Shown piece by piece: positions 4,541 to 62,695 of a stretch of DNA of 64,000 nucleotides (position 1 is the stretch's first letter; every line of letters begins with the position of its first letter). The stretch lies in the NCBI RefSeq assembly GCF_018873765.1, contig NC_057924.1:5332001-5396000 (forward strand), given 5' to 3'. The DNA is from Telopea speciosissima. Taxonomy: Eukaryota; Streptophyta; Magnoliopsida; Proteales; Proteaceae. The notes under the pieces are model-generated. The model was given only the letters and a program-made list of their open reading frames with translations, ran no database searches and had not been told where the DNA came from. The position numbers and the translations under genes are program-made.

Positions 4541-7500
4541 TTATTTATTGAACAAAAATCTCAAGTCAGCCTCCGTTAGTTTTCCAAGAGCCTCAGAAGA
4601 ACCACCTATGGTCCTATAGAAATAAGTACAGCTAGATTAGTTTTGCGTAATGGGCATACATCTCATCAGAAGCGATAGCAATTTAGACAGTTGATGAATT
4701 GGACTTACCCTTCAAACACTAATTCCTTCTTTTCTTGCAGCTTCAGAATCCTCTCTTCAATTGAGTCTTCTATAATGAAACGTATGACTCTAAAAAAAAA
4801 TCCCATAATAAGATCCACAAATTGATTAATGCATGATATGGTGGGAAACAAGTAGGAGAAGAGCTGCACCTGATTGGTTTATACTGTCCAATTCGATGGA
4901 TTCGATCTTGTGCCTGTCGCTCAACAGCTGGATTCCACCAGGGATCCATTAAGAAAACCTAAGCCGTCCTCAAGAGAAACAGATACATAAGAACCAAGTA
5001 GAAGCTTAAAATCATAAATAGAAATATCACTAGTTACACAGCATTGTCATAATGCAGCTGCTACAACAAAAGTTGGCTTGTACCCATACAGCAAGTGCAA
5101 AAGAAGAAAAATGAAAAGGAAAATCTAAAGAATGATGGACCACGCGGGGGGGGGGGGGAGAGGGGGAGGGTTGATTCAACCAACAATTCGGAAAGTACCA
5201 CACTTGGGAGACCTTTAAATGCAGTGACTGAAAATATCCAACAAATGCATTCATGTACCACTTATCATGTTTTCCGTGATGATTCAAAGAAGATGCTGTT
5301 TCAAATGGTTACGATCAATTGATCATGTAGAATTTCCATAGCATATCAGTATATCCTGTTTGTGTGTTCATTATTTAACTCCTGAACATGTGCCATGTCC
5401 ACGAGGGCAGCAACAGAGACAATGCAAAACTTATTCAAGTCTCCATCCTGAACAAACTCTTCTACATGAAAAACAACCCACTGCAAAGTTTTTTTTGGGG
5501 TGAATCACTGCAAAGTTAAGGGGTGTTCAGAAAACAGATGAAACCTGTTATTGTTCCTTAAGGTTCCATTTTTTTTTGGAAGCCAACAATCATGTAAATA
5601 AAATACCTACATGATTTTTAGATGGGGAAGATTTTATATAAAAAATTTCTTTTACATGGTTCTTACCTGGAAATAAATTGAGCCTAACCTATAAAATAAA
5701 CCAAATAACCATCAAGGGAAAAGGCCACTCACATAAGATGCTACTGTCAGATTGAGGGCAACACCTCCAGCTTTTAAGCTCATAAGAAAAATCCTGCAAT
5801 CTGGATCATCAATGAATTTCCGTATTGCGGAATCTCTTGCTTCCATTGTCATGCTTCCCACTAATTGAACGCAATTTATTCCAGACTGCAAAAAGGTTCA
5901 ACACTTAGACAAGGGATCACTTTACAGGGTATCTATTAAGAGTATATGATATTGTGCAGTTTTTACATTACCTTCTGGAGAGAGTAGTTTATCAAATCCA
6001 AAAATGATGTGAACTGGCTGAAAACAATCCCTTTTGCAGAACCATCTCTTTCAAGCATGCATCTGATTTCTTCCCTCTTTAACAGTTTCAAACCCAACAA
6101 TCACTTAGTTAAAAAATAAAATTAATAAAAAAAGAAAGTAAATAGCAAAACCAAATATGCAAACTTGAGGAAACATGAAAGAAAAACTAAAAAGATAATT
6201 TCAATATATATATATATATATATATGCACAAACAGAGAGATAAAGAGAGATTCAGTGACATGTTCCAGAAATCCAATGTCACTATCTCCCCAAAAAGGGT
6301 GAACAACAGTAGTTGACAAACAGAACCCTAAGATCCAATCATGGTACAAGATCTCGCTTTTGTGGCCCACCGAGTCAAGATGCCTTGCGATACATAAGAC
6401 ATACAAGATCTCGACCGAAATCTCGCTATCTCGTCGAGATTTCAGGACATATTTCAAATTCGGTTCATTTCAGATGAACTAGGCCCAATGATTTAAGTAT
6501 ATATACCATATTTCGACCCAAAACTCAACATATCTCGCTGGACTCGGTAGAGCTCGCCTCTCTGGTTTGAAAAACCCCTCCAAACTTGTGCTGTACACTA
6601 TTTTTATTGGGACATTTTACATAAAATACTGGAGATTGAAGATTGAAGGTTGGAGATTGTTGATTGAAGCTTCAAGAACAAAGGAGGAGTTGCATTTCTT
6701 CACAAAAACAGTGTTAGGTAAAAAACTCTTCTCAAAACTCTAGGATGGATGGGCATAAGCCATAAGGTAAATCATCCACTTGTATTTGTTTAACCTATGT
6801 CTCTTTCTAAGTTTCTAATAATTATTAACAAACCATGTATGATTATGAATATGGTGCCTAATGATTAAATGGTTTATGGTTTGATGTTTTTTCAATTCCT
6901 AATGCTTAATTAAATTGTTTTACACCTCAATTATGTGTTCTACTAGTACTAAATATTGAGTGGAATAGCCTACGGTAGAGCTCACCTACGTTGTAGACTA
7001 CCAACCTAGGGTCCAAAGTCAAAGTACCATTTTGGGTTTGAATGTGTAAAAACTAATGTATACATTATGTATAGATTTTAGAAGGCCTAAACTAGGGTGG
7101 ATGTCAAGTTTCAGGACCTATGTTGTCTATATGGCCACTGAAACCCACCACCGAGTCCTGACAGGAAAAAGATACACCAACTTGCTGAGATCTCGGCAGA
7201 ACTAGGTTTCATGGCTGGTCGAAACCATGGGCGAAACTGAGTCCTAAAACCTTGAATCCAATCAGCTCATTTTCTAGCTAGGCCATAAAGAACCCAACCT
7301 CCTCAAATTTGCATAAATGCCTATTTCAATATTGAACCATACAAATGGGGCATGGATCATTTTGCAGGCATGTGGCAATTCCCCAGTGGTAGATTTCCCC
7401 AAGAAGTGCAGTATGCAAGAATTTGGGGCAGACACTCTGTGGAATGGCACCAATGAAATGGAAGAATTAAATACATTGATTTAGAATTTAAGTCATGCCA

Positions 7501-10500
7501 GCAAAAGAAAGAAAATAAAACAGCTTTTGAAGACTGACTATGATATCACAGCCAGTTTTGCAATGTCACAACCACCATGACAGACACCGGCTACTGTTCA
7601 GGTCTAGGTTCTGTTTGGGTTTTATTTTCCAATTTAATTGCTATTAATTTTTTAAGTGAGGCTCGATAAAGTGGCTTAATCCCAGTCCTGTTTGGTTGTC
7701 TTTTCTTTATTATATATAAAGTTGTTTGGTCAGAATAGGACTTCTCCATAGCTGGTTAATTGGAAGAGTCAAGAGTCAGTCTATGCTTTATTTTTTTTTC
7801 CTTTTTGGGTCAGGATTGACTTTAGTCTTACCTTTTTCGTGTCAGAGTCTTGTCTTATTCAAACTCTATACGCATGTAAGGGACTGGCTAAAGCCTCAAA
7901 AACGAATTTAATGAATGAAGAAGCTTATGCTTTGCTGGTCTGTGGATTTCAGGCTTAAATCTGTAAGTTTAAGTGGGTTAACTCGTGGATTCAAAAATGA
8001 TTTAGCTGCTTGTTAAAGTTTCGCTACTGATACATTTGGTGAGTAATGTCCATCTGAAGATCCTTGCCTTGTGTCTAGTGGGGTTATACAATAGGGTCTA
8101 AATGGTTAACAAGGCTAATGGAAACTCCTTGGAGATTTGGGTTTGTTGGTACATTCAAGCATCCAAAATAGAGATGTCCTCGAGGTGATACAATAAATAT
8201 ATGTGCAAAAGTTCTGAATTTGTTGAAGTTTAAAGCTCATCAAGAGTTTAAATTTATTCATATTAGTTTCGAGGTCCATAGACTAAACAAAGCACTTGTT
8301 CAAAATCTAATGGAAGTGCTTCAACTGAAAAAAGATGCCCTACAGACACTGCGGGTTGCCAGTTTGTCTTGAATCATGGATATAAGTCGAGAAGAAATAC
8401 TTCCAGGCATCCAGTCGCCTTGACAACTAGTGTGGCCTTAGTTGCCTAGACAGGTGTTTTGGTCGACTTGGTCGCCTTGCGTCCAGAACCTCTCAAACGC
8501 TTTGGTTCGCCTAGATGCAGTGACAACTATGCTTCCATGGTATTTCCTCATACAAGCAGCAAACTTCATAGTAAGTGATAGATGCAGTAAATTGAGTAAG
8601 AAAAAAAAAAAAAAAAGATCAGATGTCAGACTGCTCAGGGTGGAGAAAAATTGTGGTTTAGCCATTGGATGGCTCTGTTGGGATGATGCTTCCTCATGAA
8701 ACACGTTTCACATCCTTACTGAATCTCTCATTCAAAAGGAGAACTAGCCAAAGAGGGAATGATTATAGGTTGACATATACTTCCGAGATGATCCTGGCTT
8801 TGGATTTTGATGTACCTAGATTTTAGTTCTAAGCTTTGTAGCATGTTCAATGCCTTCTGGCTTTCCTCTTGTTCCCTACAATTTACTCTTCATATACAAT
8901 TGTCATTCATTTAAGAAATATGATTTGTCAATTAAAATAGGCAAGAAGGAAAGGAAAAGAAAAACAAATCATTTTAAGAGACTCCATACCAAAGCTTCAA
9001 TTTTTGTGCTAGTCTGAAAATCTTCAAGACAAATCCTGTTCAGAATACTTGAACGTTTAAACCCCGTCACTGTTGTTTTAGAATTTTGATCCCCTTGATT
9101 CAACTTTGATGTGAAGTCAACAGTAAGCGATTTTGAACATGAGGGGCATGAGGCTTCTTCCAGTGATGAAGAGAAATCTATCAAACAAGCCTTACAGAAG
9201 ATATGCCGACAAGAGGTGACCTGAAACATGAGGACAGATTAGGATGGCAATGAAAAGAAAGACTAGAATAAAATTATCAGATCTATCTAAGGAAAAATTG
9301 ATGGCTTACAAGGCTTAAAAGGTTTTAACAGAGTGAACTCACCACTGAATCTTCTGCAGTCTCATGACAAATGCCACAGACTTTTTCACCATTATAAGGA
9401 TCACCAGTGCCTCCATTCTTTAGTAGTGCAGCTTGGGAATATACCACAAGGTACGGATGATCAACTGCCTATGGTGTTTAAGAGAGGCAAATCAACCATA
9501 TCCACTTGCAGAAATGATATTGCATTATCAATCTTAAGGCCAATTTCACATCACATTATGAGTATAATACAGAAGGGGGGAGGGGTCCAAAAAAGAACTC
9601 AGGTTTTCATGGGTCAATTTTATCCAGCCTTTACAACTTTATTATTTGGATATGGATTAAACACAATTCTTAAAATGAATTAAGTTTTACTACCCAATTG
9701 GCCAACTTTTTCTCGCTTTAAAAGCACAAACAATATCCAAATAAGAGACAAATGTATCCAGAATCATCTTAGATTAGGAGTGTAATATTCACATATGTGC
9801 AAAAAAAAAGAGTTATACAGGATTAGTCATCCACCTGTCGTAATCTTGTAAGGAGGTCAAATATGTGTGCGTAATTATTCAACAAAGTTCCAGCTTCAAC
9901 ATATCTGCGAAGTTAGGAGAAAATCGTAAGAAAATGCCTGGTAAATTGTAAGACATAATGCAAGAATTAATCATACAACAGTAAGAAACTTGTAAGGCAG
10001 CATAAACTTGGTAAATGGCAGTTAATCAGAAATCTCATACTCTACCATGATGGAGAGACTTCCACCCTTTTTTTTTTTTTTTTGGGGGGGGGGGGGGGGG
10101 GAGGGTGAGAGGAAGGTTTGCTAGCCTTTAAAAACTGCCTGCTTGGAGATTTAAAAATAGAATCAAGATATGATCGTGTGAATCCACATATAGTTGCGGA
10201 AAGGATAAGTTGAGTTGAGTATTGAGCAAGGTTCTAAATCTCAGTTTCGAGCCCGGTTTTGACATAGGCCAAAACCGAGATTTTCCAAATTTCGACCAAA
10301 ACCTGGTATTTTCTGGGTCAAACTCAAAAGGTCATGGACTGGTTGAAAGTTGAAACTAGTCCTAACTACCAAAACTGGTCGAATCTTGGTATTTTTCAAT
10401 CGAAACAGGTCAAAACTACCGAAATAGGTCGAAACTGGGCTGGTTAAACTCGGTATTTTTTTTGTTGAAACCACCGAAATATACGAAATATTGTCAAAAC

Positions 10501-13500
10501 TGGTCGAAACCTGGTATGATCCAGTATTTGCCCTTAGGTTTCGTCTCGGAAAGTGCCGAAACCGAGATATCCCGATCGAAACTGCAAGTTTCGAGCAGTT
10601 TCAACCAAGATTAAGAACCATGGTATTGAGAAATGATTGTATGCAGGAGTGAACACTGTTTCATCAGGACCATATCCCACATGGCAGGTCAGGTGGGGCC
10701 TAAATCTTAGTGAGGGGTGCACCCCTGCCAAGTTGAATAAATGGTGGACCATATGCTCGGATTACAGCCTCAAATTTGAAATGTGACTAATATAGCAGGT
10801 CCTCTTCCATCCAACAATCTAGACTATCCCACTTGCCATGGAAAAAATCAAGAGTGGGAACTGCCTTTCCTATCTATACTGGTGGACCTGCCTCCTTTTT
10901 GCCAGAGGACATAGATGAAAATATAAAAAGAAGAAAAATTACATAAGCAAAAGATATTACAATAAATTTACTTTGTATCATTGAAAGTATAGATAAACTT
11001 TCATTAAAATGTCAACAAAAACTTACAAAATTTACCAAATACGTTATGTGATATTTTAGAGGGCAAAGGAAAGGAAGACCAATCATATATAACCTATGGC
11101 AAAATCGTAAGCCTCTATTTTTTGTTGAGTTGAGTAGCTAATGCACAACACTATTGCAATGTAGCAGGAGGTGAGAGCAAGGTGTTTGCTAATTCAAGAG
11201 AAATGCAAAAGCTTTGGAACTTAAAAATCAAGATAGAGATAGCAGCTTCAAAGACCAACATAAGCACACACATATCTGACTAACACAACATCAAGATTTA
11301 ACTTATTAGATTGTTATGATACTTTGCCATATTAAAGTGGACTAGGAAAAAAAATGATAGCAACATTTAAGGACAAGAAGTTCTGATGCAGGAGCAATTC
11401 CTTGGACCCATATCCATTCGAGAATCGGGACCAAGATGAACCGGGTCCCAACCTTGTTCTGATTCAGTAGGATATTTATGATTTATTTTATTTGGGAAAT
11501 ATATGTAATCTTTTATTTTGGGTAGCTAGTAGGGAAATTTCCAATTAGAGTTTTATTGAGTTTCTATTTTTATTAGTCTAAGTTTTAGGAAGTAGTTTGG
11601 AGTCTCTATTGTTGGGTACTATAAATAGATGTGTAACTGATGATTGGAATAGTAGATTGGAAAGAATGAATTGTGTGGCTTTGGGATTCTAATTCATACC
11701 CTGGGATGATATTACCTGTGGATTCCCATCTCCAAACCCTTGCTGAATTAGTGAAGTTGCAGAACCAATTTCTGATCAGATTTGTCCTCCTCCGCCAGTA
11801 GTGGTTTCAGTCATCAAATACTTCTCTCTTGTTTAGTTTTGACACTGTTATTGATGAGCTTTCCAGAGGGTTCTTCAATATTGACGTACCTTTTAAACCT
11901 TGGAGACAATGGAGAGCCCACGAAGGAGTTCTCTCTTAGGGAGTGCTGCTGGTTCAGTTTCCTTGGTTACGTCTTGAGGTAGGAGAAGACTTCGCCTTCC
12001 CACGACTCCTCTCTTCCCTTTGATAATTATAACCTTTAACTCCCTTTTCCCATATTACCCGCCTCTTGCTCAACTATTACCCTTTTTTTTTCATATTTTG
12101 GTTTTCCATTCCAGAACTACCCTTCTCCTCGTATACTTATCTTTCCTTTATGAGTTTCATTCTCTTATGTTGTCAATATTGTTTGCGCTTATGCACATGA
12201 AGTAAGACTGGATGAAAGTAGTAAGCGTCAATTTTGGGAACACATGGATGACTTAATGCAGGGTTTTGGCCAAAATGAATCAATTATTTTTGGAGGTGAC
12301 CTGAATGGACATGTTGGGAGGGATTGTAGAGGAGATGGAGGTGTCCATAGCGGTTACGGATTTGGGGAGAGGAGGGACCTCAATCCTAGACCTTGCGGTA
12401 GCTTATGATCTGTCCATTGTGAACACTTTCTTTGAAAAAAGAGAGGAGCACTTGGTTACCTATAAAAGTGGGAATCATACCAGCCAAATAGACTTCTTCC
12501 TAACAAGAAGGCCAAACAGACTGGTGTGTAAGGACTGTACGGTTATCCCTGGGGAGAGCCTAAACACCCAACATAGACTGGTGGCTTTCGATATGTGCTT
12601 CAGTGTATAGAAGTGCAGGAGAAAAGAACCTATGTACCCTAAGATAAGGTGGTGGAAACTAAAAGGGGAGGCCCTGAGGACATTTACTGATAATGTGGTC
12701 AAACAAGGACAGTGAGACTTTGAGGGAGACACCAATGTGATGTGGAACAAGATGATGACGTATATTAAGAGGATTGCCAAAGATGTGCTAAAGGAAGCGA
12801 AGGGTAGTCGCTAGGCCCCTAAAAAGACTTGGTGGTGGAAAGATGAGTTTCAAGTAGCGATTATGACAAAAAAAGATTGTTCTAAGATATGGCAAAGGAC
12901 TAAAGAAACATAGGATAAAAAGATGTATTATGGTGCCAGAAAAGAAGCTAGGAAGATTGTGGGGATGGCTAGGGTGAAGAAATATGAGGATCTCTATATC
13001 AACCTAAATACAAAAGAAGGGGAAATTGGCAAGAGATGAGGACATTGTAAAGAAATGGGATGGGTATATCTGTGACCTACTAAATGGAGGTAGGATGAGA
13101 AGAAATGACCCAAATGATTACATTATTCAACAAGACACCACACGCCATAGATATGTACTAAAGGTTAGTGTGGCGTAAGTTAAAAGAAGCTTTAAGAAAG
13201 ATGAAAGTAGGCAAGACACCAGGCCCAGATGAGATTCCAATAGAAGTGTGGAAAACCCTTGGAGGTTGTGGGGTATTTTGGTTTACCAATCTATTTAACA
13301 TGATTATGAACTCAAGGAAGATGCCAGATGAATGAAGGAGAAGCATTGTAGTCCCGATCTATAAAATAAAGGTGATCCAAAGCTGCAAAAAAACTATAGA
13401 ACCATAAAGCTAATGAGTCAGTCCCACTATGAAACTTTGGGAGAAGGTTATTGAATCCCGTTTGAGAAGAGAAACTCATATCTCGGTGAACCAATTTGGC

Positions 13501-16500
13501 TTTATGCCAGATAAAACCGCGACAGAAACTATCCACTTATTGAGGAGGATTATGAAAAGATAGAGAGATAGCAAAAAGGATCTCCATATGGTCTTTATTG
13601 ACCTGGAAAAAGCCTATAATCGAGTCCCTAAAGATTTAATCCAACATGTTCTAGTAAAGAGAGAAGTGTCGAGTAAATATGTGGATGAAATTAAAGATAT
13701 GTACGAGGGCGTGGTGACTAGTGTTAGAACTATGAGAGGTCAAGGCAAGGAATTCCCAATTACGATTGGGTTACATAAGGGATCAACCTTAAGTCCATAT
13801 TTATTTGCGCTTATCATAGACGACCTAACGAAGAGCATTCAAGATTAGGTCCCGTGGTGTATGCTCTTCGCCGATGATATCGTTTTGGTGGATGAGACAA
13901 AAGCAAGGATTAACACTAAATTAGAGCTATGGAGGTCAACCTTGGAAACAAGAGGCTTTAAGATTAGTAGAATGAAGATAAAGTATATGATGTGTTCTTT
14001 TAGTCATACTATGATAGATACCGACATGGTGCAAATTGAGAAAAGAGAGATACCGCAAAGGTGACTATTTTAGATATCTGGGGTCAATCATAAATAAAGA
14101 AGGTGACATAAGGATGATGTTTCACAGATAATTAAAGTGGGATGGATGAGGTAGAGAAGTGCGTCCGGAGTGTTGTGCAACTGACGTATTCCTTTAAAGC
14201 TTACAGGAAAATTCTATAGGACTGCTATACGACTGGCTATGACGTATGGGCGGAATGTTGGGCAATTAAGTGTCATATTGAGAAACTTTGTGTAGTAGAG
14301 ATGAGGATGTTAAGATGGATGCACGGAAAAACTAGGAAGGATAAAGTAAGGAATGAACATATTAGAGCTGACTTGGAGTTGCCCCGATCAATGACAAGCT
14401 CTGAGACAGTCATTTGAGGTGGTATGGTCATGTCCAACGGAGGCCTAAGGACACCCCGGTAAAGAGGAGTGATATGATCCTGATTGAAGGAGCTAAAAGA
14501 GCTAGAGGCAGGCCTAAAATGACCATAGGAGAAGTTGTGAGGAACGACATACATAGTCTAGGTCTTGTTCCAAGTATGACCTCGGATAAAGCCTATTGGA
14601 GGGCAAGGATCTGTGTAGCAAACCTACTTAGCTGAGATTCTCCTGTCTTGCTAGGCTATGCCTCTTTCCTCTTACTTTCATCTCTCATCTTTCATTTTTC
14701 TTTTTATTTCCCATATTTCATTTCTCATCTTTTTTTTTTTTTTTTTTAAGACCTCTTTTTTCATCCCTACCTTGTTTTGTTTGGATCCATGTAGCCGACC
14801 CCATTAAGTTGGGATAAGGCTGAGTTTGTTGTTGTAGTTGTTGTTAGTTCCATTCTCTTGAGATTTAAACTTCATTGATTACAATATTGCCACTGCTTGT
14901 TTATCACTGGATTTATTTGTTTGGGTGGGCCCAAAAGCAACTCAATAAGGGTTATTCCAACCTGGGTTTGCACCAAGTTCTGAAGCTTCAAAGAGCTTAA
15001 GCAAGATCAAGGCAAAAGGGACACTTAGGAAGAAGCTTCCTGCAATATGTAGCCAGAACTTGGGCCCAGATTTTTTGGATAAAAAGGTTCATTCAATGAA
15101 CAGATGGGAAGTGAGTATCTAACACTGATGAAACTTTTATATGGTGTTTATATTATTATATGTTATGTGTGTCTTGAATTCTTGTACCCATTTTGAAGTT
15201 TGCCCTGCTCCAACATTTTTTTTGGTGGTGACCCGAAGGGGAAATTTTGTGAGGTCTGTGATGGTAAGTGGTAACGACCTGACCTAATGGATTGACCTGA
15301 CTTGGAGCAGTTTTACCTTTTTTATTGTCTTATTGTGTAAGCAAGAGGAAGAAGTTAGATTTGGGCATTTCGTGTTAGGGTTTTCTGGGGAAAGTTCTTG
15401 CTGCGAATTGCGATGTTCTTAAGAGATCTCCATTGTACTTTTCTTCCATCACATGGTGAATCATTTTCAGCTTCACCCGTGGAAGTAGCATGTTATGTAC
15501 TTGACCAATACGCCAAAAGCTCTAGAGCTGATGGAACACGTTAAATCAAAGCCCTTTAACCTATCCCAAATTAGGCTAGCAAGTAGCATGTTAGGTACTT
15601 GACCAATACGCCAAAAGCTCTAGAGCTGATGGAACATGTTAAATCAAGCCCTTTAACCTATCCCATACTAGACTGGCCCAATCTAGTGCCCATACACTAT
15701 AGTGGGCCCCATTAGGCATATAACAGATCACCATGCTTCTGTAGCCGTCGTCCTCAGCAGCTCTCCCTTTGGCGGTAGGTAGCCCTTTCTAAGCGGCTCT
15801 ACTCTGCTCCAGGTTTTTGTCTGGTGGCAGGTAGCCCTTTCTTGACGGCTTTCACTCTACCCCAGGCTAGGGGTGTCAATGCCAGACCCGCACCGGCAGA
15901 CCCGACCCCACTCGACCGTTTAAAGACCGAACCGAACCGACCCGATTAATAAAAGTGTCGGGCTTCAGCCCGACCCGTTTATAAGCGGTCGTTCCCGGTG
16001 CTGGAAGTAACACCGTCGGATGCCCGACCGACCCGCCCGCTTAAAGGCCCGACCGAGCCCGACCCCCTTTGCCCGTTTAAACCCGACCCCTAAGCTCGAT
16101 TATTATTACCTATTCTACCCCAACCCCGGAGAAAATTCCCAAACGTAAACACGTTCCAACTTCCAACTCCCTAACAAGTAACAACCGGTAACCTAACCCT
16201 CCTAAATGACTAACCATTAACCCTAATTATTTACCCAAAAAAACCATTAACCCTAACTAACCTTCCAAATTCCACCTCTTTTTTTCTTTTTTCTATTCAA
16301 TCTCACAAAATCAAAATTTAGTCTTTGAGTCTCACACATCCACGGCAAAATTGCACTTCTTTTTTCCTTTTTTCTATTCAGTCTCGCAAAGTCAAAATTT
16401 AAGTCTTGGAATCTCACGAGTCACACGGCAAAGGGAGAAAAGAAGAAGAAGAAGAAGAAAGAACAGGAAAGGTAATAAACTAATCATGAATATATTATTT

Positions 16501-19500
16501 TTTTATAAATAATCTATTATTCTATTAGATCGTTTTGTCATCTAGTACTCTAGTTCTTTCACTTTTTAGTTTTTATCTTCATCTCTCGACTCTCTCCCAC
16601 ATGGTTCTAAATGCTACACGCCTATATCTGATCCATCATATGTGGAATCCTCCCTCTCATAATGTGATTAACTCGATATTGATGGCAGCTCCATCTCGCA
16701 ATCCAGGGTCATGGAGTAGGGGGCATATGGAGACCTTGAGGGGTCGATTCTTATAGGTTTTGTTCTATTGGCTAATTGTAATTCAGTCACGGTAGAATTG
16801 AAAGTAGTCGATCAGTCTGAGACTGCCCTTCTACTTGGATGGGTACATTTAATCTTAGAAGGAAATTTTAAAATGATGATTGGATGGCTTAGTAGAGATA
16901 GGAGGTCCTGGAGATAAACATACTTCATTGGAAAGCTATATAGCATTATGCACCAACCAAGAGTTATCTTTTGTATGAAGGATGCATTCAGCCAATTCAT
17001 TAGTTGATGAGTTGGTTAAGTAAGAGGTTAAAGGGAATTTCTATAGTTGGGATCTTACCCCATTCTCGTAGTTCCTATTGAGCATTTATTGTTTCATACT
17101 AACCTAGTAGTCCTACTTATCCGAAATAAAAACTCTTCCACAAAAGATTCCTAATTGACTAGAATATTCACCATTTCGGAATTTGTTCTTGGTTTTTTTT
17201 TTTTTTTTAAATTTGTTATTAGTAATATTTATTATTATTGTTTGAACTTTGGAGTCATCATGAAGCCTCTTTCAACCTTACATGCATTTGGTTATTAGGT
17301 GCTTGAAAAATATTTCTTTAGGTTTATTTAAGTTTAATAAAGTACATATTTTAGAGACTATATTTTGAAGAATTTTAGCTTTATTTTGATGAAGATTATT
17401 CTTGTTTATTATTTGCAGCTTATTGTTAGTCACTTAGTCATTTAGCATAAATTAGAAATGCCAAATCAAAGAATCCCGAAGTTCAAATGACTCCAAATGA
17501 AGGAAACGTTTCTAGTCCGTCTTCTAGTAAGACAAATGCTGCACCAGCCTACTTGCTTCTCGGTGCTACACTGGTACTAGAGCTCCTACTTCAACCGGTA
17601 TTACAATGAGAAAGAGGAAAATAACTTCTATAGTTTGGAAAGAGTTTATTCAAATTCCTAAAGAAAAGAATCCTCGATGGGAGACAGAGGGCAAAATGTA
17701 AGGCTTGTGGGAATATATATTTGGTGACTCGGATATCAATGGCATTGGCGGTTTGAGGAGACACCTTAAGAATTGCACCAAACGTAAAAACAAAGATATT
17801 GCCCAAATGATATTAAGTGGAGGTGATGGGAATCGACATGTAAAAGCAAGAAGATTGATGCAGAAATGGTGCGAGATATGATTACCATGCTTATTGTTAG
17901 AAGAGAACTACCCTTGGTGTTTGTTGAATATCAAGAGTTTAGGGATTTGATTACCTATCTTTACCCACAATTCAGCCCGATTAGTAGGAATACCCAATTG
18001 GCTGATATCTTGAGGTGGCACAATAGGGAGAGTAAGAGGATTAAGGAATTTTTGAATTCCTTCAATGGTAGGATGTCATTGACTCGATTTGTGGTCCTCC
18101 ATCACTGACTCTTATATTTCTCTCACTTGTCATTACATTGACACGAATGGATATTGCATAAGAAATTACTAAAATTTTGCATCATGCCACCACCACACAC
18201 AGGAGTTAACATAAGTCAAATTGCATCGGAGATGTTATTGTATTGGGGATTGAGAAGAAAGCTGTTTTCTATTACTCTAGATAATGCTTCGCAAATCTCT
18301 CTTTTATTGATCACTTGAAAAGAAATTTGGTGTTGAAGAAGGCTTTAATGTGTGATGGTGATTTTTTTCATAATCGATGTTGTGCCCATATATTGAACCT
18401 AATTGTACAAGATGGTTTGAAGGTAATTGATAATTGTGTACAATTGGTTCGATCCGAGTAGCATATGTGAAGGCATCTCGTGCAAGGAAAGTGAAATTCC
18501 TAGAATGCTAAGCGGTGGGTTTATCAAATAAGAAAGGATTGCATGGAGATGTTACCACGAGGTGGAACTCCACTTATCACATGCTTGATTCTGCTATATT
18601 CTATAAGAGTGCATTTCATGAACTTGGTTGGTGAATAAAAATTATAGAGAGTGTCCAAGTCTCGAGGAATGGTCCAAGGTTGAGCAATTAATGCATTTTT
18701 TGAAGCCTTTCAATGACATCACAGAGGTGTTATACGGGACCAAGTACCCAACGGCAAATTTGTATTTTCATAACGTATGGAATATACATAAGTCTTTGTT
18801 GGAAGTGATAGTACATGGAGATGACCTTATGAAGAAGATGGCACAAGAAATGAAAAAGAAGTTTGACAAGTATTGGGACTCATATAGCATTATTTTAGCT
18901 ATTGCGGTTGTATTTGACCCTCGATACAAGTTATCCTTTGTTTCATGTGCTTTTGATAAGATATATAATCTTGACTCTAGATCAAGGGAGAAATTTAGAC
19001 TTGGAAAAACAAGTTTAGAACGACTCTTTGAAGAGTACCGAAGCATGGATGTGACCATGGAAGAGGGGGCATTACACTCGGATGATATAGAGGCGATACG
19101 GTTGGAAATGCATCGGATGGCAGGTATAAATCATTTTGTTTTTTATTTCTATTGTATATTCATTTCAATATGTTGCATTTTTATATTGATTTTTTATTTT
19201 ATAGGAGCTAAACGCATATGAGAGTAGCAATAATACAACAAGATCAGATAAATCTGAATTGTATTTGTATTTGGAAGAGCCAAGGATCAAAGATACGACG
19301 AAGCAATATGATGTATTGGCCTATTGGAAGTCGCAGGAACTAAATATCATGATCTTTCTCGGATGGCACGGGATGTGTTAGCTATTCCGGTATCAACGTT
19401 GCTTCGAATCGCTTTTAGTCTTGGAGGTAGAGTTATTGACAAATATAGAAGTAAGCTACTACCAACAAATGCTGAAGCACTGATTTGCCCCCAAGATTGG

Positions 19501-28200: not shown

Positions 28201-31200
28201 AAGTAGCAGATTCAGTCATGGTATAAGTGAAATCAGCTTGTTTGGTATTAGTGATATCCTCTTTCAGACAGTTTGTAGGTGAGATGGACTGTGCCATAGA
28301 CTATAGTGATCAAACGATTCTCTTCTGATGGAGTTTTTCATGGAGATTCTCTAGTCTTAACAGGGAAATGCACCATTTAGCATCCTTCCTGAATATCTCA
28401 TTCAGTTGGAGACCTAGGTCAGCAAATCTCATAACAAATCCCAACCCTCGATCCTCTTCCAAGATGATCGAGGGTTGGGATTTTGTTATATTTTATTTTA
28501 TCACTTACCTTTTGTAGCATGTTCGGACACTTACTGGTTATTCTTTTTCATATATTCTTCAAATGAATTTGCTTTTCATCTAAAATACATGTTTTTTTCA
28601 ATTAAAAAAAAGAAAGAGAGGCAGGTGGGGGAATCTACTCAGAGCCTACATACCAAGGACATAATTTTTGTGCTGGTCTGAAATTCTTCAAGACAAACTC
28701 TGTTCGCAAAACTTGAATGTTTAGTCCCCTTCACTCTTGTTTTTGCCCTCTGCTTGGGGCATGAGCCTTCTCCCAGTGCTGCAGAGTAATCTATGAAACA
28801 ATCCTTACAGAAGACATGTCCGCAAGAGGTAACCTGAAAGATAATGGTGGCAATGAAAAGAAGGATTGGATGTACACAATGTCAGATGATCTAAACACAA
28901 CTGTAAGGCTAACCACTGGATATTCTGCTTCATCAACGCAAATACCACAGACTTGTTCATGATAATTAAGATGGCTTTTGTATCCGGAGCTACTTCGTAC
29001 TATAGCTTGGGGAAACAAGTCAAGGTATGGATGATCCGCTGCCTGTGGTGTTTAAAAGAGACAAATCAACCATATGAACTTGCAGAAATGATATAGCTCA
29101 TGAGCTGTCAATCTTAAAGACAATGTCACTTCACATCAGTGTAAATATCCAACGCAAAAGCTTGAACTACTGGGTGGAGGGAATCAGGTATATGAGGAAA
29201 CAAAAGGCTTTATGGGTAATCGATGGGACTATTTTGCCAACATTTCCTCTCAAATGTAAGTAGGATGGAACTACATGCACGTGCATGGATGCACAGATGA
29301 TGAAACAGAATGGAAGCAGGATCAGAACCTGCTCTGATACCATGTAAATATCCAACCCAAAAGCTCGAGCTATTGGGTAGAGGGACTCATAGGTATATGA
29401 AGCAACGGAAGGCTTTAAAGGTAACCGATGTGGGACTATTCTCCCACAAAATTAGAAGCTCAAAATAACGGAGAGGAGGCCTTGAACAAGAACTCAAAGA
29501 GCTTTCATGAGTTAAAACTTCAACCAGACTTTGTCAAGTTTACTTACAGCAGAGTCTTGAGAAACTTAAGGAGAAATCGAGTTAGCACATGAAGAAACAA
29601 TCCACTCGGATTATAGAAGCAAAGACTTAATAGTATTATCTTTCCTTTTTCCTTGGAAAGATATGAAGATCTAGAAAATTCTATCCTTTAGCTCTGTAAG
29701 AAACATTTCAATTTGAAATACAAATGAGCTTGAGTGAAGTCTGATTCAATTTTGAATAATTATTTTACCTTCTTCGTGTGCTCCGCTTACATTTGATGTC
29801 TATCTATTTGTTTTCTGTTAGGATTTGCATGATGAAAAAGTTCTTAAACTGGCCCTACTTTTTATTTGATGTAATATAGAAGAATTAAACTAAAAGGAGG
29901 GTAATGACCTAATGTTCACAAGTATACATTCAGGAAAACAAGACAATCAAGACAATGTTTTGAGTATGCAAGTGCTATCCCATAAATTTAATCGCAGCTA
30001 TTGCTGGAAATAAGGATAAGGGGGTCCTAACAATTCCTTCAAGAGAATTAAAAACTTCTGAACTTCTTAATAATAAACCATCAATCAAAATGAAGTAATA
30101 AAATAATTCTAGTCACTTCATGCTTCATCCTTGAAAAAGTGCTCTTTCCATTCCAAAATTTCCTTGGAACAGCATTTGGTACTTCAGCCGATTGGATCTG
30201 TTCCCAAAGCTGCTATTACTCCTCCCTAATATAAGATCAAAGGAAACATTTAGGTAGTTCCAGATCCTAAAAATACAGAAAAAGGGTTTCCAAATTTCAC
30301 TTGAGAAGAATAATAATGATTCAGATCAACAGTCACTGTTTCCTCACATAATAAACAATGATGATGCAAAGGTGGGCCATAGGAATTTTATTCTTCAGCT
30401 TATTTGGGATTGCATCTCATTTGACATCAAAAGCAAGCTAGCTTCGGTCGCATCTTCTTGATAGGACACCCCAAGGAACAGGCATATTGTTGCTTCCTGG
30501 GGTCTCCCTTACTCCTTACACCCTTCTTCCTCTTGAAGCTGGGGATTTTTCTTTGGATTGTTGTAGTTTGTATTTTTTCTTCTTCCCCGTTGAGCGGGGC
30601 CCCCTGTTCTCTCTCTCTTTGGTAATGAATTATTTATTCACCCAAAAAAAATGATAAATCAATTTTTTCAGGAGCAGAAGTACCTTACGAAAAAATTTTC
30701 AGACAGCAAGTTGAATCTATGACACCCTTACGAAAATAGACATAGTAGGTTGAATACAAATCCAGTTAAGTTGCCTAGAATGATCTGGCGAGGAAAAAAA
30801 AAAGATAAACATGGTAGAGTTGATTTCTGTCATTCATATTCCTTCGGAATTGCAAAACCCTGGTCATCTGCTTCCTTTCCTACTTCAAGGCTTCTTCAAT
30901 CTAAATTATGTAACATTTCTCCGCATGAAAGACATGGAAAAGGTATGCTACACTATAAATCTTCTCAAAGCATCACTTCGTCACCTATCAAGCATTTGAT
31001 AAATTTTCTAACAACTTAGAGTGCTTCTCAAATTCCCATAGGAATCAACAACTAAGTTGCATGAAAGACATGGAAAAGGCATGCTACACTATAAATCTTC
31101 TCAAAGCCTCACTTCGTCACCTATCAAGCATTTGATAAATTTTCTAACAACTTAGAGTGCTTCTCAAATTCCCATAGGAATCAACAACTAAGTTGCATGT

Positions 31201-34200
31201 CTTCACGATACTTTATACCCGCTCCTTCCCTTTTCAGTGAATATATTATGTTACTTGTAATGGGATTGCGGAAGTAAGTAGAATATACATCCTCCTGCTG
31301 ATTAATGTTCAAGTTTACCCCCAGAAACTTTGTTTCCCTCTTCTTTTTGACATTAAAATTTAGGATCTCTTCAAGTTTCCCTTTTTAATTAATAAGAGGA
31401 GAAAGTATGGGTTAAGTGCAGGCCTTGACATGCTTTAACAAGGTCCTAACTCCCAACAGAATACACTCTATACTAAAAAAAAAAAGAAGGAAAAATGCTT
31501 TAATAGTAAGTGTTATGAACTCTTCACAAATGGATGCCCTAATTCATTGGATATGAAAGCCACCTGTTGAGATGGAAGAATGTACTGTATAGATGTCAAA
31601 TGCCACAACATTCATTGTGAACAAAAGGCTCCGAATGACAAATCCAGGATTAATAGCAAGAGTTTTCATCCTCTTGGATCAGAGAATACACCGGTCATTA
31701 ATCTTTTATTGCAGGACTCATAATTAGGTCTGTCAAAGGATTCTATTTTGAGCAGATATGTATCAATATATGGTTTGTTAAGCCGACCATGGATATGCCA
31801 ATATCTGGTCTGATTAAGATGTGGCCTGTTTAACAATGTCTGATATCAGGCATATTGAACAAGTATACATGTATGTATATCTGACAAAATTATATACATA
31901 CGATTATATACATCAACTAGATATACTTAAGATGACGCATATAGCTTTGTAATCTGTAACATACACCTAAAAAAATAAAATTATGGGTATGCAGTATTTT
32001 TAATTATATAATTTGTTAGGTTTTATATGTTCAGCTTGTACTAATTACATAATCTATACTCTTCAGTGTGTATGTAGGTATTGTTGTGTTGTATTTGGGT
32101 TTTTATCTTATTACAAGTATAAATATGTACCATCATTATAAACATATAGGATAGATGCAAGAGTTTGTAAGGTTGACGCCCCCCCCAAAAAAAAAATGTT
32201 ATTTTAATCCTGACTTGAATATCTGATATCTTGTCCTGATATTTGGATATCAATCGGATCTGAATATGGATCTAGGTCCATATGATCCATCAGATTTTAG
32301 GTATACAGTTAAATAATCATAGAGAATACATAAATAGGTATAACTACTCCATATTCAGTCAATCTACAGCCCTACTCACGATGGACCAATGCATTTACCA
32401 TCTCAAATCAGACTTCGTGCACAATGGGGCAGTGCAAAAAATTAGACAAAAGGCATGGCCAACATCATCAACTACTATGAACGTTTAGCAAATAACGACA
32501 AAGTTTAAGAAACTCAATCAAGTACTCAACCAACACTAAGTCAACTTGATTATAGTTACTCATCCAGAAAAAAACTTGATCATAGTCTGCAACCAAATCT
32601 GCACCAAACCAGTAACTTAACCTTGCTTTCATAAGTACAAACACAAAACGTATCAAGAAGAATCTTAAACTGAAATTTCATGGTTAAGAAGTTTAATATC
32701 GTACAGATGCAGCTGAAACCAACAGTTGGTTTAGACAGGATTAACCACTCACCTGTCGCAATTTTGTAAGGAGTTGAAATATGTGCTTGAAATTACTCAA
32801 TACGGTTCCATTTTCAACATATCTGCCAATTACAGAGTGCACCATTTAGAAACTTGTCCAGGAAATGCTTGCACATAATACAAGAATTAACCAACAACAT
32901 AGAACACTCATAAAGCAGTGTGAAATTAAGTACCATCACAATCAATCAGAACTCTCATCTTCTGGACTTCCCATTATGGGGAAGCTTCAATTTATTTTGG
33001 TTTACTGAGGCTTTGTTTAGTAGTATTAAGAAGCAGTTGAAGTACTGATACTCAAAACAAGGAAGGCATTGTTTAGTAGTATTAAGAAGCAGTTGAAGTA
33101 CTGATACTCAAAACAAGGAAAAGAAAAGCTATAAGTATGGAAAGAATTAGAAAATTGCCAACAAAAAATATATCTTATTAGAAAATTATTTTGTATCATT
33201 AGTAGTATGATAAAACTTAAGGATTTCATTGACACTATAGAGAGTCAACGACTCTCTTACACTCTTATATTTAATATTGTCTATTAATAATTAATGTTGA
33301 TAGTCTTTTGTATCCATCGGCGTCAAGCGATTACATTGTCATTGTACACAACTATTAAATAAATCAAAAGATGTGGACTGGTGGGAGAGTTAGTTATATC
33401 AATTCCCTTGCTCTCTCTCCTATTCTTCTTCTTCTTCTTCTTCTGTTTTCTATTCTGCAGGTTGTACACAACTATTAAATAAATAAATAAAATGTGGAAG
33501 CTTTGGTTCTCAAAAACTGTATGGATTTGCAGCCTGGAAAACATCTACATAATACATTGAATACAGCATAGAGGTTTAATCAAGGTTTTAAGTATCGGTA
33601 TCGGGTATCATATCGGAAAGGTGATTTTAAGAGACGTATCGGATCGTATTGGAGAGTATTAACCATATCGGGTCACATATCAACCCTATACAGTTGATAC
33701 TTTTTAAGTAACGTATCGGTGTGGTATCGTATCGATACCCTAAAAATAAGATATGTATCGGTTAGTTTCGGAGGATACGTTAAGATACTTAAAACCTTGG
33801 GTTTAATATATAAATTTTAATGATATCAAATTCGTTGTTTTCAAAATACTAAAGCAAGATCCAGGACAAGAGTGATACTTACGAAGAGGCTTTCAGCAGT
33901 TGGTAGCCTGAGCTAGAGCACAGGTTTTTGGGAAAAAATTTCATTGAATGAACGGATGCGAAGAGTAAATCCAACATTAACAAAATTTTAAAATTATATT
34001 TATAACAAGAAGTAGACAAAACTTATGGCATATAATAAAATACACAGATAAACAATAGCACATACATACATTTAAAGCAAAAAAATTAAGAAAGTTGAAA
34101 CACGATATGAAAATTGATTCATAGAACCAATATAAGTGGTGGCATGAAAAAAGGAGATAGCAGAAAGTGCATGGTGAACATTGAAATGTCCATACAAGAA

Positions 34201-37200
34201 TTAAGATGGAGCTGCTACATATAATCAAATTCAAAGCAACAAAAGAAGAAAAGAAGCATGAGGACTCACACAGTAAATTGTGACTGGCTTTTACTAAACA
34301 GTGGTCTGTAATACTCTTCCTCACCAATATCAAGATTATCTCGTCTCAGGTCAACCTAGAAAACAGTGATATCAGAAATTCTGAGAATGACAATCAGTTT
34401 TTCATCAGCCATGAGAAATATCATAGAACAAGGTTAACTTCCATAGACGGTGCAACCTTCTTCATTAGGACTCTTTAACCCCTATAAGAGACAGGAGAGA
34501 GAGGAATAGCTGTACTTACAGTTTTTACAGGAAGGGAAATATCTGCAGCCCTTCCCTTCTTAGTGCGTCTTAATGCTATGCTTTTCAAAAGTTTATGTTT
34601 TAGTAAAATATGTGCCCTTCTGCGGCTTCTGTTTTGATTGGCATTATCTTCCGATGCTAGTATAGGTTGAGAAATATACTAATACAGAAAGGATAAGAGA
34701 TATTATAATCACAAAAAATGTTACAGTTAAACCTCTGAACATGATGACAACAACAAAAGAAAAGAGAAAAACAAAAATGACTACGAGATGTAAAACTCAC
34801 TTTTTTCCACCACAAAAAATGTGTCGTTGAATGGACACAGTTGCACTTTATTTTGGAACTGTAATTGGAAGCATGTTCCAAATGATAGATATAGCAAAGC
34901 TGTTAGTTTCAGAAAGTTAAGAATGAAAAATGGAACTGCAAAAGTAATGAAATGAAGAAATAGACAAAGTTTCAGCATTCAAGTGAACAAGCCATGATAT
35001 GTAATGAGGATATTAACTTCATATACACAAAATATGGTAATGAGGATAGTAGCAAGCCATGATATGCGTCTACACCATATATATGAGAGCCCAACATGCA
35101 GGCTGGATAAGGGTGCACTGATGGGTCCCCCCAGGAAGATCTTATATGTTAAAAGTTAATATAACCAACTCATTGGAAGAATTTTTTTACTTTTCCCCCT
35201 TTCATACCATTAAAAGAATTAATATTGAGTTCCTTTACTTTTTCCCCTTTCATACCATGTTTTCATGCAGTACAGATCGCTGATACTCTACCTAACCAAA
35301 GGTTGGTGCCTTACCTCTCACTCCAATCCTAAATTTATGCCCAAAATTCTACCAGAGACAGTTTCCAGCTCTCCTCTCTCATCAAGATCACTTTTTTACG
35401 CGTTTATGATAGTAAAAGGTTTGACAGTATATGTTCTCTGTCCTCTCACCCAACATTCTACAACCTATAGCTATGTCACCCTACCTCAGTTTGCATCTTA
35501 ATTGTGAAAGATAAGAGCTTGAAACAGATTTAAGAAAAAGAAAAATACAAATGCATTAGGATCTTTCCGGCTAGATTTGGTCTTTGTTGGAGACTTCAAT
35601 TATCACTTATCAGTACATCTTACTACCTACCAGCTACAACACATACTAAAGTATACAAAGAAAATAGACTCTTGGATCAAGCACACATTTCAAATGGTTA
35701 TATAAGGCCTAGATATTGTTAAGTAATGTCACCTGACTCCATATGTTTCAGTCCCTTTAATGAAAGGAAGCAGCGGCAAATTTTTTCCTTGACACCGCAT
35801 ATTCAAAGACGAAAATTATCCTTTAAGGACATCATGCATCCTTATTTTATTTAGGCTCCAATCTCTAAATAACCAAAGCAACTCCTAAATAGAGCTCCAA
35901 AAATATTTGGGAATTAGTGAACTTAAAACAGAATAAATTGAGGCAAATATTCAAGAGGTGCCCTTTGTAGCTTGTACTAGCTATTTGGGTAACATTTTTA
36001 ATGGGCTGAGCCACATCCATGGTCTTTCAAGCCCACTTATAACCACATTGATCCTTCCATAGTAGGAAATACTCCCCCTATCGTGGTACACATCTTAACA
36101 ACTCCAGAGTTAATATTAATAGATAGAGAGGAAGAAATATAATTTTTCTTAAAAAAAAAATCAGCTGGATGGAAACAGACATCTTATTAGACCAAGCAAG
36201 ACAGTAAGCACCCAGTAAATTACCTGTACTCAAGTGATTTACAATCACACTCCATACAGAATAAATACGAGTAAGGTGTTATCTGTAGAAAACGGACCTG
36301 TATAATTCAAATTACAAATTTATCACCTTAAAATGTAACAGACTACACAAACAACTAAATGCCCAATGAATTTAGATGCCACTAACCAGAGAATAAAGTT
36401 CTCCAACATGAAGCTGAAGCGCAGTACCACTTAATGCCCACTTATATGAAGATTCCAAAGCAAAAGCAGCTTTTGCTGTACTCCAGTGTTTATTTTTTAT
36501 GTAATGAGCCTAAATAAAAAAACAAGCTGTGATTCTTAAATAGTAAAAAAGAACATTAGCAAATGAGTTCTGAGAAGTGGAAAGCCATAGATCACCTGAG
36601 AACATTTTTTGCAATTTGAAAACAAGTAAATGTGTAGATAAAAGAAACACCATCTATATTTCAGAACTAATTAAAGACATTCTAGTTATGAAATAGCTAA
36701 CATGCTTCAGATAGTTCATGGAATTTCAAAAAAGAAAACGAGTAAAGAGTGAAGAAGGGAAAATGGTTAAATCTTATTTAGTTATTTCATCTATACAGCA
36801 TGAGCCTTATAATTAGGTGTGTCAGTCAAATTAAGTGATATCATGTTTTACAATTCCCTAAGCAATGAATTTGTTCCACATATTTCCTTCTCATTGTGCC
36901 AACTCAAACATCATTTTGCTTTTCTTTTTGACTTTTCACTTACAAGCACACCTCGGGCTTCAGCAGAGCACCAACTTATTTGAAGAAAATTTTTTGTTTC
37001 GAAAACATGCAGTAGTGTCTTCTTGTACCTTTTAATAACAGCATAGGGAAATCAGAGGGACACAGAGTAACTCTACTGTAAAATCACATAGTCTTAACGA
37101 TGTATTTTCCCAATATAAAGATGGAATCATGTAAGCTTACTTCATCCAATATAATGCGGTCCCACTTCATACTGTGGAGCACTGAGACACTGGAAGCAGC

Positions 37201-38334
37201 ACTTTGACTGGTCTCAGCTTCTAGACCAGGCAATTGCATTTTCTTCTTAACCATCGCATTTCTGTACTCTGCTGCAAGGGTGGAATATGTGGTCAGGACA
37301 AAATCGTTCTCAAAGAACTCATCTGAACTCTTCTTGGTTCTTTTGGGCCCGTGGTATACTAATACCCTGGTGCTCCCTTTGGATGTGATCCGATATAGCT
37401 CACTCTCCCACTGCTTCATAGCAACCACGGGGCAAATAACGAGAGTGCATTTTGTTTCAGGCAACATTGTGGCTGAACTCGGTGAAGGTGAGGAACCACC
37501 AGATCTGCAAGTCGATTGACAGGTTGCCCGCTTGGCAAGAACGAGTGCAATGGCCTGGATGGTCTTACCCATTCCCATCTCATCTGCTAGTATTCCTCCT
37601 CTCATTGCCGATTCTTCTTGTTTCAATGCCCAGGCAAGCCATTCCTTCTGGTACCTAAGCAGAGGAGTTAGCAAATCTGAGGAAGGGTCAGCAGTTTCAT
37701 CCATTTCCTCACCTGCATGGTCCAATTCAGCATCTTTTGTTGCATGGGCATCGATCCACTTCTCGTTCTCTTCCTCCCAAACCTTCCACATTAATATTGG
37801 TCTCTCTCTCTCTGTCCCTTCCTTCTTCTCAGGTGCATGCAAGCAACCAACTCTATCTTCTTCAATATGGAGAACCGGTTCTTCTTCACTGGTTCTTTTA
37901 CTCTTATGTTCATCTTCTGTGCATAGTTCCGCTAGAAGGGCAAGGCCCACTTTGTCTTCTTTACGGCTTTCTTTACTCTTAGATTCATCTTCTAGAATTA
38001 ATTCCGCTAGAAGGTCAAGGCCCCCTCTGTCTTTCTTTTTTGGGGCACACTCAGAAACATCATCATCGTCACTAATTTCTATCACAGCTTTTCCTTTATC
38101 TCCGACGCCAAAGCCCTCCTTCTCTTCCTCTGCTGTCGGAGGTTCACGCGGAGAACTTCCATCTATATAGACAGAAAAGAAAATATCCATCGGAAAAAAA
38201 TAGCAACAAGAAAACAACAAAGGAGTGTACAGTGAGATACCTTCTTCGCTAACGCTCAAGTCCGAATCTGAATCTTGGCTAATCAAATTCGAAAAATAAT
38301 CTTCTTCGTCGTAACTATCTCCGTCCCCCTTCAT
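25240..38334 (-). CDS. RAD16: RAD16/RHP16-like SNF2 helicase paralogue, copy B (open frame, altered motifs)
   Basis: Exons in transcript order: 38334-38241, 38162-37141, 36509-36387, 36297-36224, 34858-34801, 34678-34520, 34355-34270, 32822-32753, 29042-28914, 28833-28654, 26529-26425, 26340-26188, 25675-25587, 25496-25416, 25312-25240. Phases agree throughout, giving 831 codons. Introns are GT-AG except the last, which has a GC donor. The ATG at 38334 follows an in-frame TGA. Walker A DEMGMGKT (225-232) and DE|AH are kept, but motif III is SGTALQL (400-406) instead of SGTPLQN, the RING ends CPKQ (630-633) so the last cysteines are lost, VFSQFTS is VLSLFTS, SLKAGG is SLNSAG, and the last motif is [11 protein letters not shown]. 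The C2H2-like insertion of copy A is missing, and the acidic N-terminus carries a 22-residue tandem repeat ([12 protein letters not shown] and [12 protein letters not shown]). Inference: translated, but with weakened ATPase and E3 activity, or an early pseudogene. Confidence 0.82.
27644..28160 (+). mobile_element. Short 5'-truncated RTE LINE in copy B intron 10
   Basis: Only the C-terminal reverse-transcriptase tail is present: [16 protein letters not shown], then [11 protein letters not shown], then [10 protein letters not shown], ending RTRVADPL with a stop at 28036. It is followed by a T-run, GTAGCCTACCCC and GTTGTTGTTG. The final 130 codons are open, so this copy is younger than the LINE in copy A. 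The matching intron of copy C (about 43385-43470) lacks it. A nearby 39-bp direct repeat (27560 and 27599) lies at its left edge. It lies antisense to the host gene. Confidence 0.85.
29140..29448 (-). mobile_element. 309-bp TRIM retrotransposon in copy B intron 8
   Basis: LTRs of 103 bp (29140-29242) and 106 bp (29343-29448) both start TGTAAATATCCAAC and end in CA. The 100-bp interior has the minus-strand primer site TGGTATCAGAGC (29331-29342), touching the right LTR, and a purine tract GAGAGGAAA on the minus strand (29243-29251), touching the left LTR. There is no coding capacity. Copy C lacks it at the matching place (about 44460-44475). No 5-bp duplication is visible, so the flanks have changed or the insertion caused a small deletion. 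Confidence 0.85.
29453..32752 (-). other. Copy B intron 8, remainder
   Basis: Non-coding. 30923-31058 is repeated in tandem at 31059-31194 (period 136). The sequence from 29453 to about 31445 is homologous to 44470-47140 downstream of copy C's first exon, and the homology stops at 31.45 kb, where the LINE starts on the C side. The reading frames at 30750-31019 are non-coding repeats. Confidence 0.65.
31725..32374. mobile_element. Probable hAT-type MITE, 650 bp
   Basis: The left end TAGGTCTGTCA and the right end (reverse-complemented TAGGGCTGTAG) are short inverted repeats. The flanks are CTCATAAT (31717-31724) and CTCACGAT (32375-32382), 6 of 8 matching. The interior is AT-rich with repeated GATATC/ATATCTG words and no ORF. 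Confidence 0.5.
33013..33120. repeat. 56-bp tandem duplication in copy B intron 7
   Basis: TTGTTTAGTAGTATTAAG starts at 33013 and again at 33069, with almost no divergence. A second pair of direct repeats (TGTACACAACTATTAAAT) lies at 33343 and 33463, around a (TTC)n tract. Confidence 0.8.
33581..33799. mobile_element. 219-bp MITE with 8-bp duplication
   Basis: The perfect inverted ends are CAAGGTTTTAAGTATC (33581) and GATACTTAAAACCTTG (ending 33799). The flanks are GGTTTAAT at 33573-33580 and 33800-33807. The interior is built from CGTATCG/CGATAC words. The 8-bp duplication suggests hAT or a related class. Confidence 0.82.
34859..37140 (-). other. Copy B introns 2 to 4
   Basis: These introns separate exons 2, 3, 4 and 5. 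They are AT-rich and non-coding. The short open frame at 35265-35501 has no family signal and lies antisense inside an intron. No transposon ends were recognised here. Confidence 0.6.
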
Positions 38335-43700: not shown

Positions 43701-44374
43701 AGGTCCGCAAATCTCACAGCAGAAGATATTGCCAAACGGTCAGCTTGGAGTTGCTATTATTGGTCCTCTTCCAAGATGATTGAGGTTTGGGATTTTGATA
43801 TATTTTGATTTCTCAATTACCTTTTTTAGCATGTTTGGAGACTTCTGGCTTTTCTTTTCATTTATTCTTCAACAAATTTGTTGTTCATAAAAAAAGATAC
43901 GTTTTTGTCAATTAAAATAGGAAAGAGAGAAGATGGGGGAATCTACTCAGAGCCTCCATACCAAAGCTTCAATTTTTGTGCTAGTCTGAAAATCTTCAAT
44001 ACGAATTCTGTCCAGAATACTTGAGCGTTTAGTCTTCCTTGGACTCAACTTTGATGTGGAGTCAGTGGTAAGCATATTACTACATGAGGGGCATGAAGCT
44101 TCTTCTCCCATTGCTGCAGAGTAATTTATCAAACAATCCTTACAGAAGACATGTTGGCAAGAGGTAACCTGAAAGGTGAGGATGACAATGAAAAGAAGGA
44201 TTGGATGTACACAATGTCAGATGGTCTAAACACAACTTGATGTCTTACCACTGGATCTTCTGCTGCCCCAAGGCAAATGTCACAGACTTGTTCACCATTA
44301 TCAGGAAGGCCTGTGTTTCTGTTCTTTAGTGCAGCAGTTTGGGAATAAACCACAAGGTATGGATGATCCGCTGC
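40709..44374 (-). pseudogene. RAD16/RHP16-like helicase, copy C, 5'-truncated (last seven exons)
   Basis: Exons in transcript order: 44374-44249, 44168-43962, 42177-42073, 41989-41837, 41140-41052, 40962-40882, 40781-40709. They match copy A exons 10-16 and join in phase into 277 codons without a stop. A full C3HC4 RING (CDIC, CQHVFCKDC, CPSC), [18 protein letters not shown] and [11 protein letters not shown] are kept. The first half (Walker A, DEAH, SGTP) is absent: the homologous segment ends at about 47140, where a LINE begins. The last intron has a GC donor, as in copy B. No promoter or start is visible, so a truncated pseudogene is likely. Its coding exons look less decayed than those of copy B, so truncation may be recent, or the RING-helicase C part may still be expressed from another start. 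Confidence 0.8.
42640..42952. repeat. About 170-bp tandem duplication in copy C intron
   Basis: The word series TGATAGAGAAGA.., GATCTTGTAAGAGTTTCTGC, TGTTCATTGGAATCTT, GGAAGATCCTTGGGAAT occurs at about 42640-42798 and again at 42810-42950, with small differences. Copy B has a single copy (near 27040-27220). Confidence 0.75.
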
Positions 44375-46881: not shown

Positions 46882-47139
46882 TAAGTTACATGCCTTTTGA
46901 TACTTTTTACCCAGCCCTTCTCTTATCAGTAAAAATGTTTTGTTACATGCAGTGAGATTGTGGAAGAAAGTAGCCTTTACATCCTCCTGCTGATTAACAT
47001 TCAAGTTTACCCCCAGCAACTTTGTTTCTCTCTTCTTTTAGACATTGAAATTTAGGACCTCTTCAAGTTCTTTGCTTTTTAATAAACAAGAGGAGAAAAC
47101 ATGGGGTTAAGATGTTGGCCTCGGCATGCTTTACAAGGT

Positions 47140-62692: not shown

Positions 62693-62695
62693 TGT

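Follow-up and report, generated by a model that had tools for sequence, protein, structure and literature searches.

The RAD16-like array

The window, a 64,000-nucleotide stretch of the Telopea speciosissima genome (C9:5332001-5396000; 823 Mb in 1287 contigs), together with flanks fetched on both sides from the genome sequence, contains three homologous full-length RAD16-like genes, here termed A, B and C, which form one head-to-tail array on the minus strand. Gene models were obtained using a purpose-written spliced protein-to-DNA aligner in which stops and frameshifts are permitted but penalized, and a self-comparison was carried out over a 124-kb region (C9:5312001-5436000). As an earlier reading of the window from its letters alone (hereafter the sequence-only reading) had described, exon boundaries and intron homology are common to the three minus-strand copies in both the self-comparison and the gene models. 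The E-values of the SNF2 domain, 2.3e-56 for A, 5.1e-53 for C and 3e-52 for B, exclude chance homology. The features are as follows, in window coordinates; positions above 64000 lie beyond the right end of the window.

24042..4541, minus strand: copy A, RAD16-type gene, 16 exons, 886 amino acids (gene model; Pfam SNF2-rel_dom, RING, Helicase_C)
24042-23997, 23875-23792, 23692-22593, 22313-22191, 22102-22029, 21826-21763, 21635-21480, 21379-21294, minus strand: copy A exons 1-8
9904-9835, 9468-9343, 9220-8990, 6076-5972, 5885-5733, 4958-4870, 4789-4709, 4613-4541, minus strand: copy A exons 9-16
22593..23692, minus strand: copy A exon 3, where the ATPase N-lobe starts (Walker A DEMGMGKT) and which carries a linker insert with Cys and His residues
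8990..9468, minus strand: copy A RING region, exons 10-11, with the C3HC4 ligands all present by eye
38334..25240, minus strand: copy B, 15 coding exons, 831 amino acids (gene model)
28654..29042, minus strand: copy B RING region, in which 17 residues present in A are deleted
44374-44249, 44168-43962, 42177-42073, 41989-41837, 41140-41052, 40962-40882, 40781-40709, minus strand: copy C, last seven coding exons (spliced alignment)
81111-81033, 80889-80018, 78573-78451, 78363-78290, 76551-76506, 76380-76222, 76063-75978, 68455-68386, minus strand: copy C, eight further coding exons past the window
44375..64000, minus strand: part of copy C intron 9 (A numbering) inside the window
48748-65481 (to C9:5397481), no strand assigned: LTR-internal-LTR-internal-LTR retrotransposon in C intron 9 (self-comparison)

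Copy A, which had been read as an intact gene of 886 codons, is exactly that: all 15 introns are of the GT-AG type, the 886 codons are followed by a stop, and the spliced aligner returned an identical model of 16 exons with zero defects. The linker insert in its exon 3 is absent or mostly absent in the other copies, B being without most of this Cys/His-containing segment and C and a further copy on contig C4 (see below) likewise affected, with the insert missing in C. Arabidopsis RAD16 presumably has a linker like this one, in which case the form seen in A would be ancestral. The 11.4-kb intron 8 of A also holds a hAT transposase fragment on the plus strand (PF14372, E 1.2e-30; window 18628-19221).

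The frame of copy B runs through 831 codons to a stop without internal stop or frameshift. One of its introns is GC-AG; in A numbering this is the intron that follows exon 15, which is GC-AG in both B (window 25416) and C (40882) and GT-AG in A. By eye, the B equivalent of A exon 1 is without a start codon, and B would therefore begin in the exon-2 equivalent. The description of B as open, with altered catalytic and RING positions, agrees with the models. In the customary motif and RING ligand names of the family, motif III of B is SGTA where A has SGTP, motif V is SLNSAG where A has SLKAGG, and the 17-residue deletion takes out the last RING Cys. Despite this missing Cys, the RING of B (residues 594-631) is over the Pfam cut-off for zf-C3HC4_2, with an E-value (2.6e-08) that beats the best RING match of A (2.1e-06), so that a dead RING would be a reading of one ligand and not an established loss of function.

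Copy C had been taken to consist of its last seven exons only, a view that does not survive extension of the sequence. Eight more coding exons lie past the window edge (C9:5400386-5413111), ordered, in frame and on the same strand as the other seven, and the joined model has 780 codons plus a stop in an uninterrupted frame; finding these exons rules out a pseudogene fragment. Position 44374 is the first base of C exon 10 (A numbering), exon 9 begins at 68455, about 4.5 kb beyond the window end, and the intron between them is 24,011 nt long, continuing to window-equivalent 68385; C thus looked truncated because of the window edge and a 24-kb transposon-bearing intron. Like B, C is without the exon-1 start codon by eye and begins in exon 2. 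Its one real defect is the usual acceptor of exon 6, which is GA, not AG, so that an in-frame AG 9 nt downstream is needed, with three residues lost. Motif III of C is SGTV, and its RING (residues 534-574) is intact.

The retrotransposon in C intron 9 has TG...CA ends and is flanked on both sides by a GATAG target-site duplication. Its outer LTRs are 95.5% identical and its two internal parts 98.3%, a related LTR that is 89.5-91.3% identical lies at C4:64696309-64699006, and the LTRs contain repeats of about 264-268 bp. In neither internal part is there a stop-to-stop stretch longer than 113 codons. Judged by these identities, the element is younger than the split of B and C, whose small introns are 85.8% identical, in agreement with its absence from B. 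A satellite origin of the 6.97-kb repeat at 48.7-65.5 kb is ruled out by the ends, the GATAG duplication and the separate LTR copy on C4. A different set of related fragments (window 27601-28038, 14248-14619, 48593-48750 and elsewhere) is scattered over introns and intergenic sequence; to the eye they might be LINE tails, which is a guess, and one ORF from them had no Pfam match.

Relationships among the copies

A search of the genome with protein A, in which 51 of 154 candidates were scored, revealed one more close relative and thus a fourth copy, around C4:64659080-64675383 on the plus strand. Homology in this copy begins within exon 3, so it is 5'-truncated; the Walker A lysine is replaced by Asn (GNT) and the motif VI arginines are lost, and the aligned exons contain zero stops. 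No syntenic block was seen around it when C4:64640001-64700000 was compared with C9:5292001-5446000, the matches outside the gene being a short stretch just 3' and scattered repeat-like pieces. Among the 51 of 154 candidates scored, the C9 array and the C4 copy are the only same-genome matches with at least 54% identity; elsewhere in the genome identity reaches at most 53% per stretch, for example 41% over residues 630-866.

Of the 14 introns compared, seven are of alignable length in each of the four copies. Small-intron identity is 0.853 between A and the C4 copy and 0.858 between B and C, and the four comparisons across these pairs give 0.63-0.68. A bootstrap of 100 on the introns supports the quartet that joins A with C4 and B with C. 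In 624 ungapped intron columns, 112 informative sites favour this quartet against 2 and 1 for the alternatives, and in the exons 122 favour it against 17 and 10. The dS values recover the same pairing, with 0.22 (B-C), 0.40 (A-C4), 0.47 (A-C) and 0.54 (A-B), but leave a conflict of timing, as the A-C4 distance is about twice that of B-C by dS and equal to it by introns. Protein identity to A (0.715 for C, 0.642 for B, 0.631 for C4) is misleading for relationships because C4 evolves fast. On these comparisons of sequence, A pairs with the C4 copy and B pairs with C, with a root between the two pairs that is placed by rate balance only. A group made up of just A, B and C is thus ruled out by the intron identities, dS and the quartet, and the expectation that the three are each other's closest relatives gives way to one in which A, whose small introns are only 0.66-0.68 identical to those of B and C, is joined at 0.853 with a same-genome paralogue on C4.

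Selection and open reading frames

The four sequences were analyzed with a codon model that fits one omega per branch over 638 columns. The estimates are 0.26 for A, 0.31 for the internal branch, 0.91 for B, 0.68 for C and 0.82 for C4; the A branch (2dlnL 15.9) and the internal branch (31.3) are the only ones on which omega = 1 can be rejected. The corresponding values for the B branch (0.23), the C branch (1.63) and the C4 branch (1.74), and for all three together (3.87, 3 df), give no rejection. A single-class test on the 476 columns away from gaps (2dlnL 0.76) agrees with the joint test. Averaged over their codons, the amino acids of B, C and C4 thus look unconstrained.

The frames themselves behave otherwise than neutral change would predict. 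Neutral change of the fitted size should have left B with 10.8 stops, C with 5.2 and C4 with 15.2, against zero observed in each, and zero stops were reached in none of 2000 simulations for B, in none of 2000 for C4 and with P = 0.005 for C. Every one of the 13 indels that separate B from C in the aligned introns would disrupt a reading frame, as would 12 of the 13 that separate A from C4; at the scale of the coding length, these rates predict about 43 (B-C) and 36 (A-C4) frame-breaking indels, against zero observed. When only the end of each branch is taken as neutral, the chance of zero stops is 0.05 for B and 0.26 for C over the last quarter, and over the last half none of 1000 simulations for B and 0.07 for C. 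A two-class model with a constrained class of sites on the fast branches beats an all-neutral one (2dlnL 21.2, 638 columns); the signal drops to 10.3 with gap-flanking columns removed (476 columns), and the size of the class is unstable (0.48 and 0.81).

Comparison with introns gives a different result for each of the three copies. Second codon positions of C changed at 3 of 180 sites against 22 of 367 in introns (p = 0.027), that is, more slowly in codons, in a count restricted to codons identical in the other copies, which favours conserved codons. Those of B (28/221 against 32/377) are not significantly higher than introns (p = 0.12). The exons of C4 are faster than its introns (42/387) both at second positions (48/286, p = 0.03) and at 4-fold sites (16/66, p = 0.005), a pattern that fits poorly with either simple decay or simple selection on the protein. 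The reading consistent with these data is that the frames of B, C and C4 have been required through the greater part of their past, with large parts of the protein able to vary freely. Given zero stops and zero frameshifts against the neutral expectation, "decay" is the wrong word for B and C. The sequence-only reading is right about a RAD16-type ATPase, serial duplication and divergence; its "different stages of decay" do not hold, C being complete and both frames open, and as a description of the array decay fits B only in part and C not at all.

Origin and significance of the copies

The SNF2 N-lobe (PF00176) and the helicase C-terminal domain (PF00271) pass the Pfam cut-off in all four copies, and GKT and DEAH motifs are present in A, B and C. 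Between the ATPase lobes, the C3HC4 RING is complete in A (residues 629-674) and C (534-574); in the C4 copy there is no RING match at E 0.001 and a Cys/His pattern is visible. By its domains, the array is one of RAD16-type SNF2-RING genes of the Rad5/16 group, with putative orthology to plant RAD16 specifically. The best solved-structure match of A is yeast Rad5 (PDB 6l8n, E 7.7e-68), like A a RING-interrupted SNF2 ATPase. Rad5 is a different member of the Rad5/16 group; HIRAN, a domain of Rad5, has no Pfam match in A. DNA-repair ATPases tend to be held at low copy number.

In PMC10454142, Arabidopsis RAD16 (At1g05120) is described as having an SNF2 ATPase, a C3HC4 RING and a C-terminal helicase domain, the same set as A, a likeness of domain make-up; RAD7 binding and a role in global-genome repair are reported for it. 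The same source gives 61% identity between RAD16 and RAD16b (At1g02670), a duplicated paralogue described there as expressed and without the RING, whose mutant is UV-sensitive. The RING of B is likewise partly deleted; RAD16b, as described, is without the whole domain, whereas B is short of one ligand and C keeps the whole RING. Common origin of B and RAD16b looks unlikely, the A-B dS being only about 0.5. Overall, the history of these copies is of a kind that gene families ordinarily show, and RAD16b provides a parallel.

The reading we prefer, with a probability of roughly two in three, is that of three full-length RAD16-type genes produced by an older duplication that separated A from B/C, followed by a later tandem duplication of B/C and by the C4 copy, with A constrained and B and C weakly so. 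The older duplication would have given an A lineage and a B/C lineage; the B/C gene would later have duplicated in tandem, and an A-type gene would have given rise to the 5'-truncated dispersed copy on C4, at a similar time by introns and earlier by dS. We infer expression, activity and role from the observed gene structures, open frames, within-genome relationships and rates. Copy A, under purifying selection, most likely does the ordinary RAD16 job, which by family knowledge and the Arabidopsis protein would be ATP-driven translocation on chromatin and RING E3 activity, with RAD7, in global-genome nucleotide excision repair. In both B and C, Walker A, DEAH box and motif VI arginines are retained, but a Pro and an Asn of motif III are lost; the two genes most likely make protein, with remodelling activity weakened or altered, that acts beside A, a role also proposed for the RING-less RAD16b.

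Among the other explanations, it is rather unlikely that B and C are silent, or were silenced so recently that frames used until lately have not yet collected stops. Such silencing would fit the exon-1 start lost in both, the exon-6 acceptor lost in C, the last RING Cys gone in B, mean omega not separable from 1 and the last-quarter zero-stop chances of 0.05 (B) and 0.26 (C), and is opposed by the zero stops over whole branches (0/2000 for B, P = 0.005 for C) and by the B-C comparison, in which about 43 frame-breaking indels would be expected and none is present. Progressive decay of the tandem array, with C down to its last seven exons, can hardly be credited: just seven C exons are visible within the window, but the other eight lie past its edge, ordered, in phase and on the same strand, which refutes this account for C unless the assembly is wrong there.

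We also consider it improbable that positive selection, for a new function and beyond mere relaxation, acts on a minority of sites in B, C and C4. A free second class of about 9% of sites with omega of about 5 on these branches improves on the capped model (2dlnL 32.9, and 26.5 once gap-flanking columns are removed), and the coding exons of C4 outpace its introns. Against this, the result comes from only four sequences, under a purpose-built model that was started from few points and leaves out multi-nucleotide changes; omega of this site class is above 1 on the A and internal branches as well; C4 also evolves quickly at silent sites, suggesting a mutational cause; and second positions are not significantly above introns in B (p = 0.12) and are below them in C (p = 0.027).

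With two open and loosely constrained copies beside one constrained copy, the array as we prefer to read it lends itself to the questions of how duplicates of RAD16 persist and whether loss of the RING recurs as in Arabidopsis RAD16b. It also illustrates that a window edge and a transposon-swollen intron can mimic gene decay. A more speculative and doubtful extension is that RAD16 copies in this genome have more than once become fast-evolving paralogues in which ATPase motifs are altered, the RING or linker is eroded and selection keeps the frame open. These may serve as regulators or decoys of the RAD7/16 repair complex that have lost part of their remodelling activity, and would have arisen independently of Arabidopsis RAD16b.
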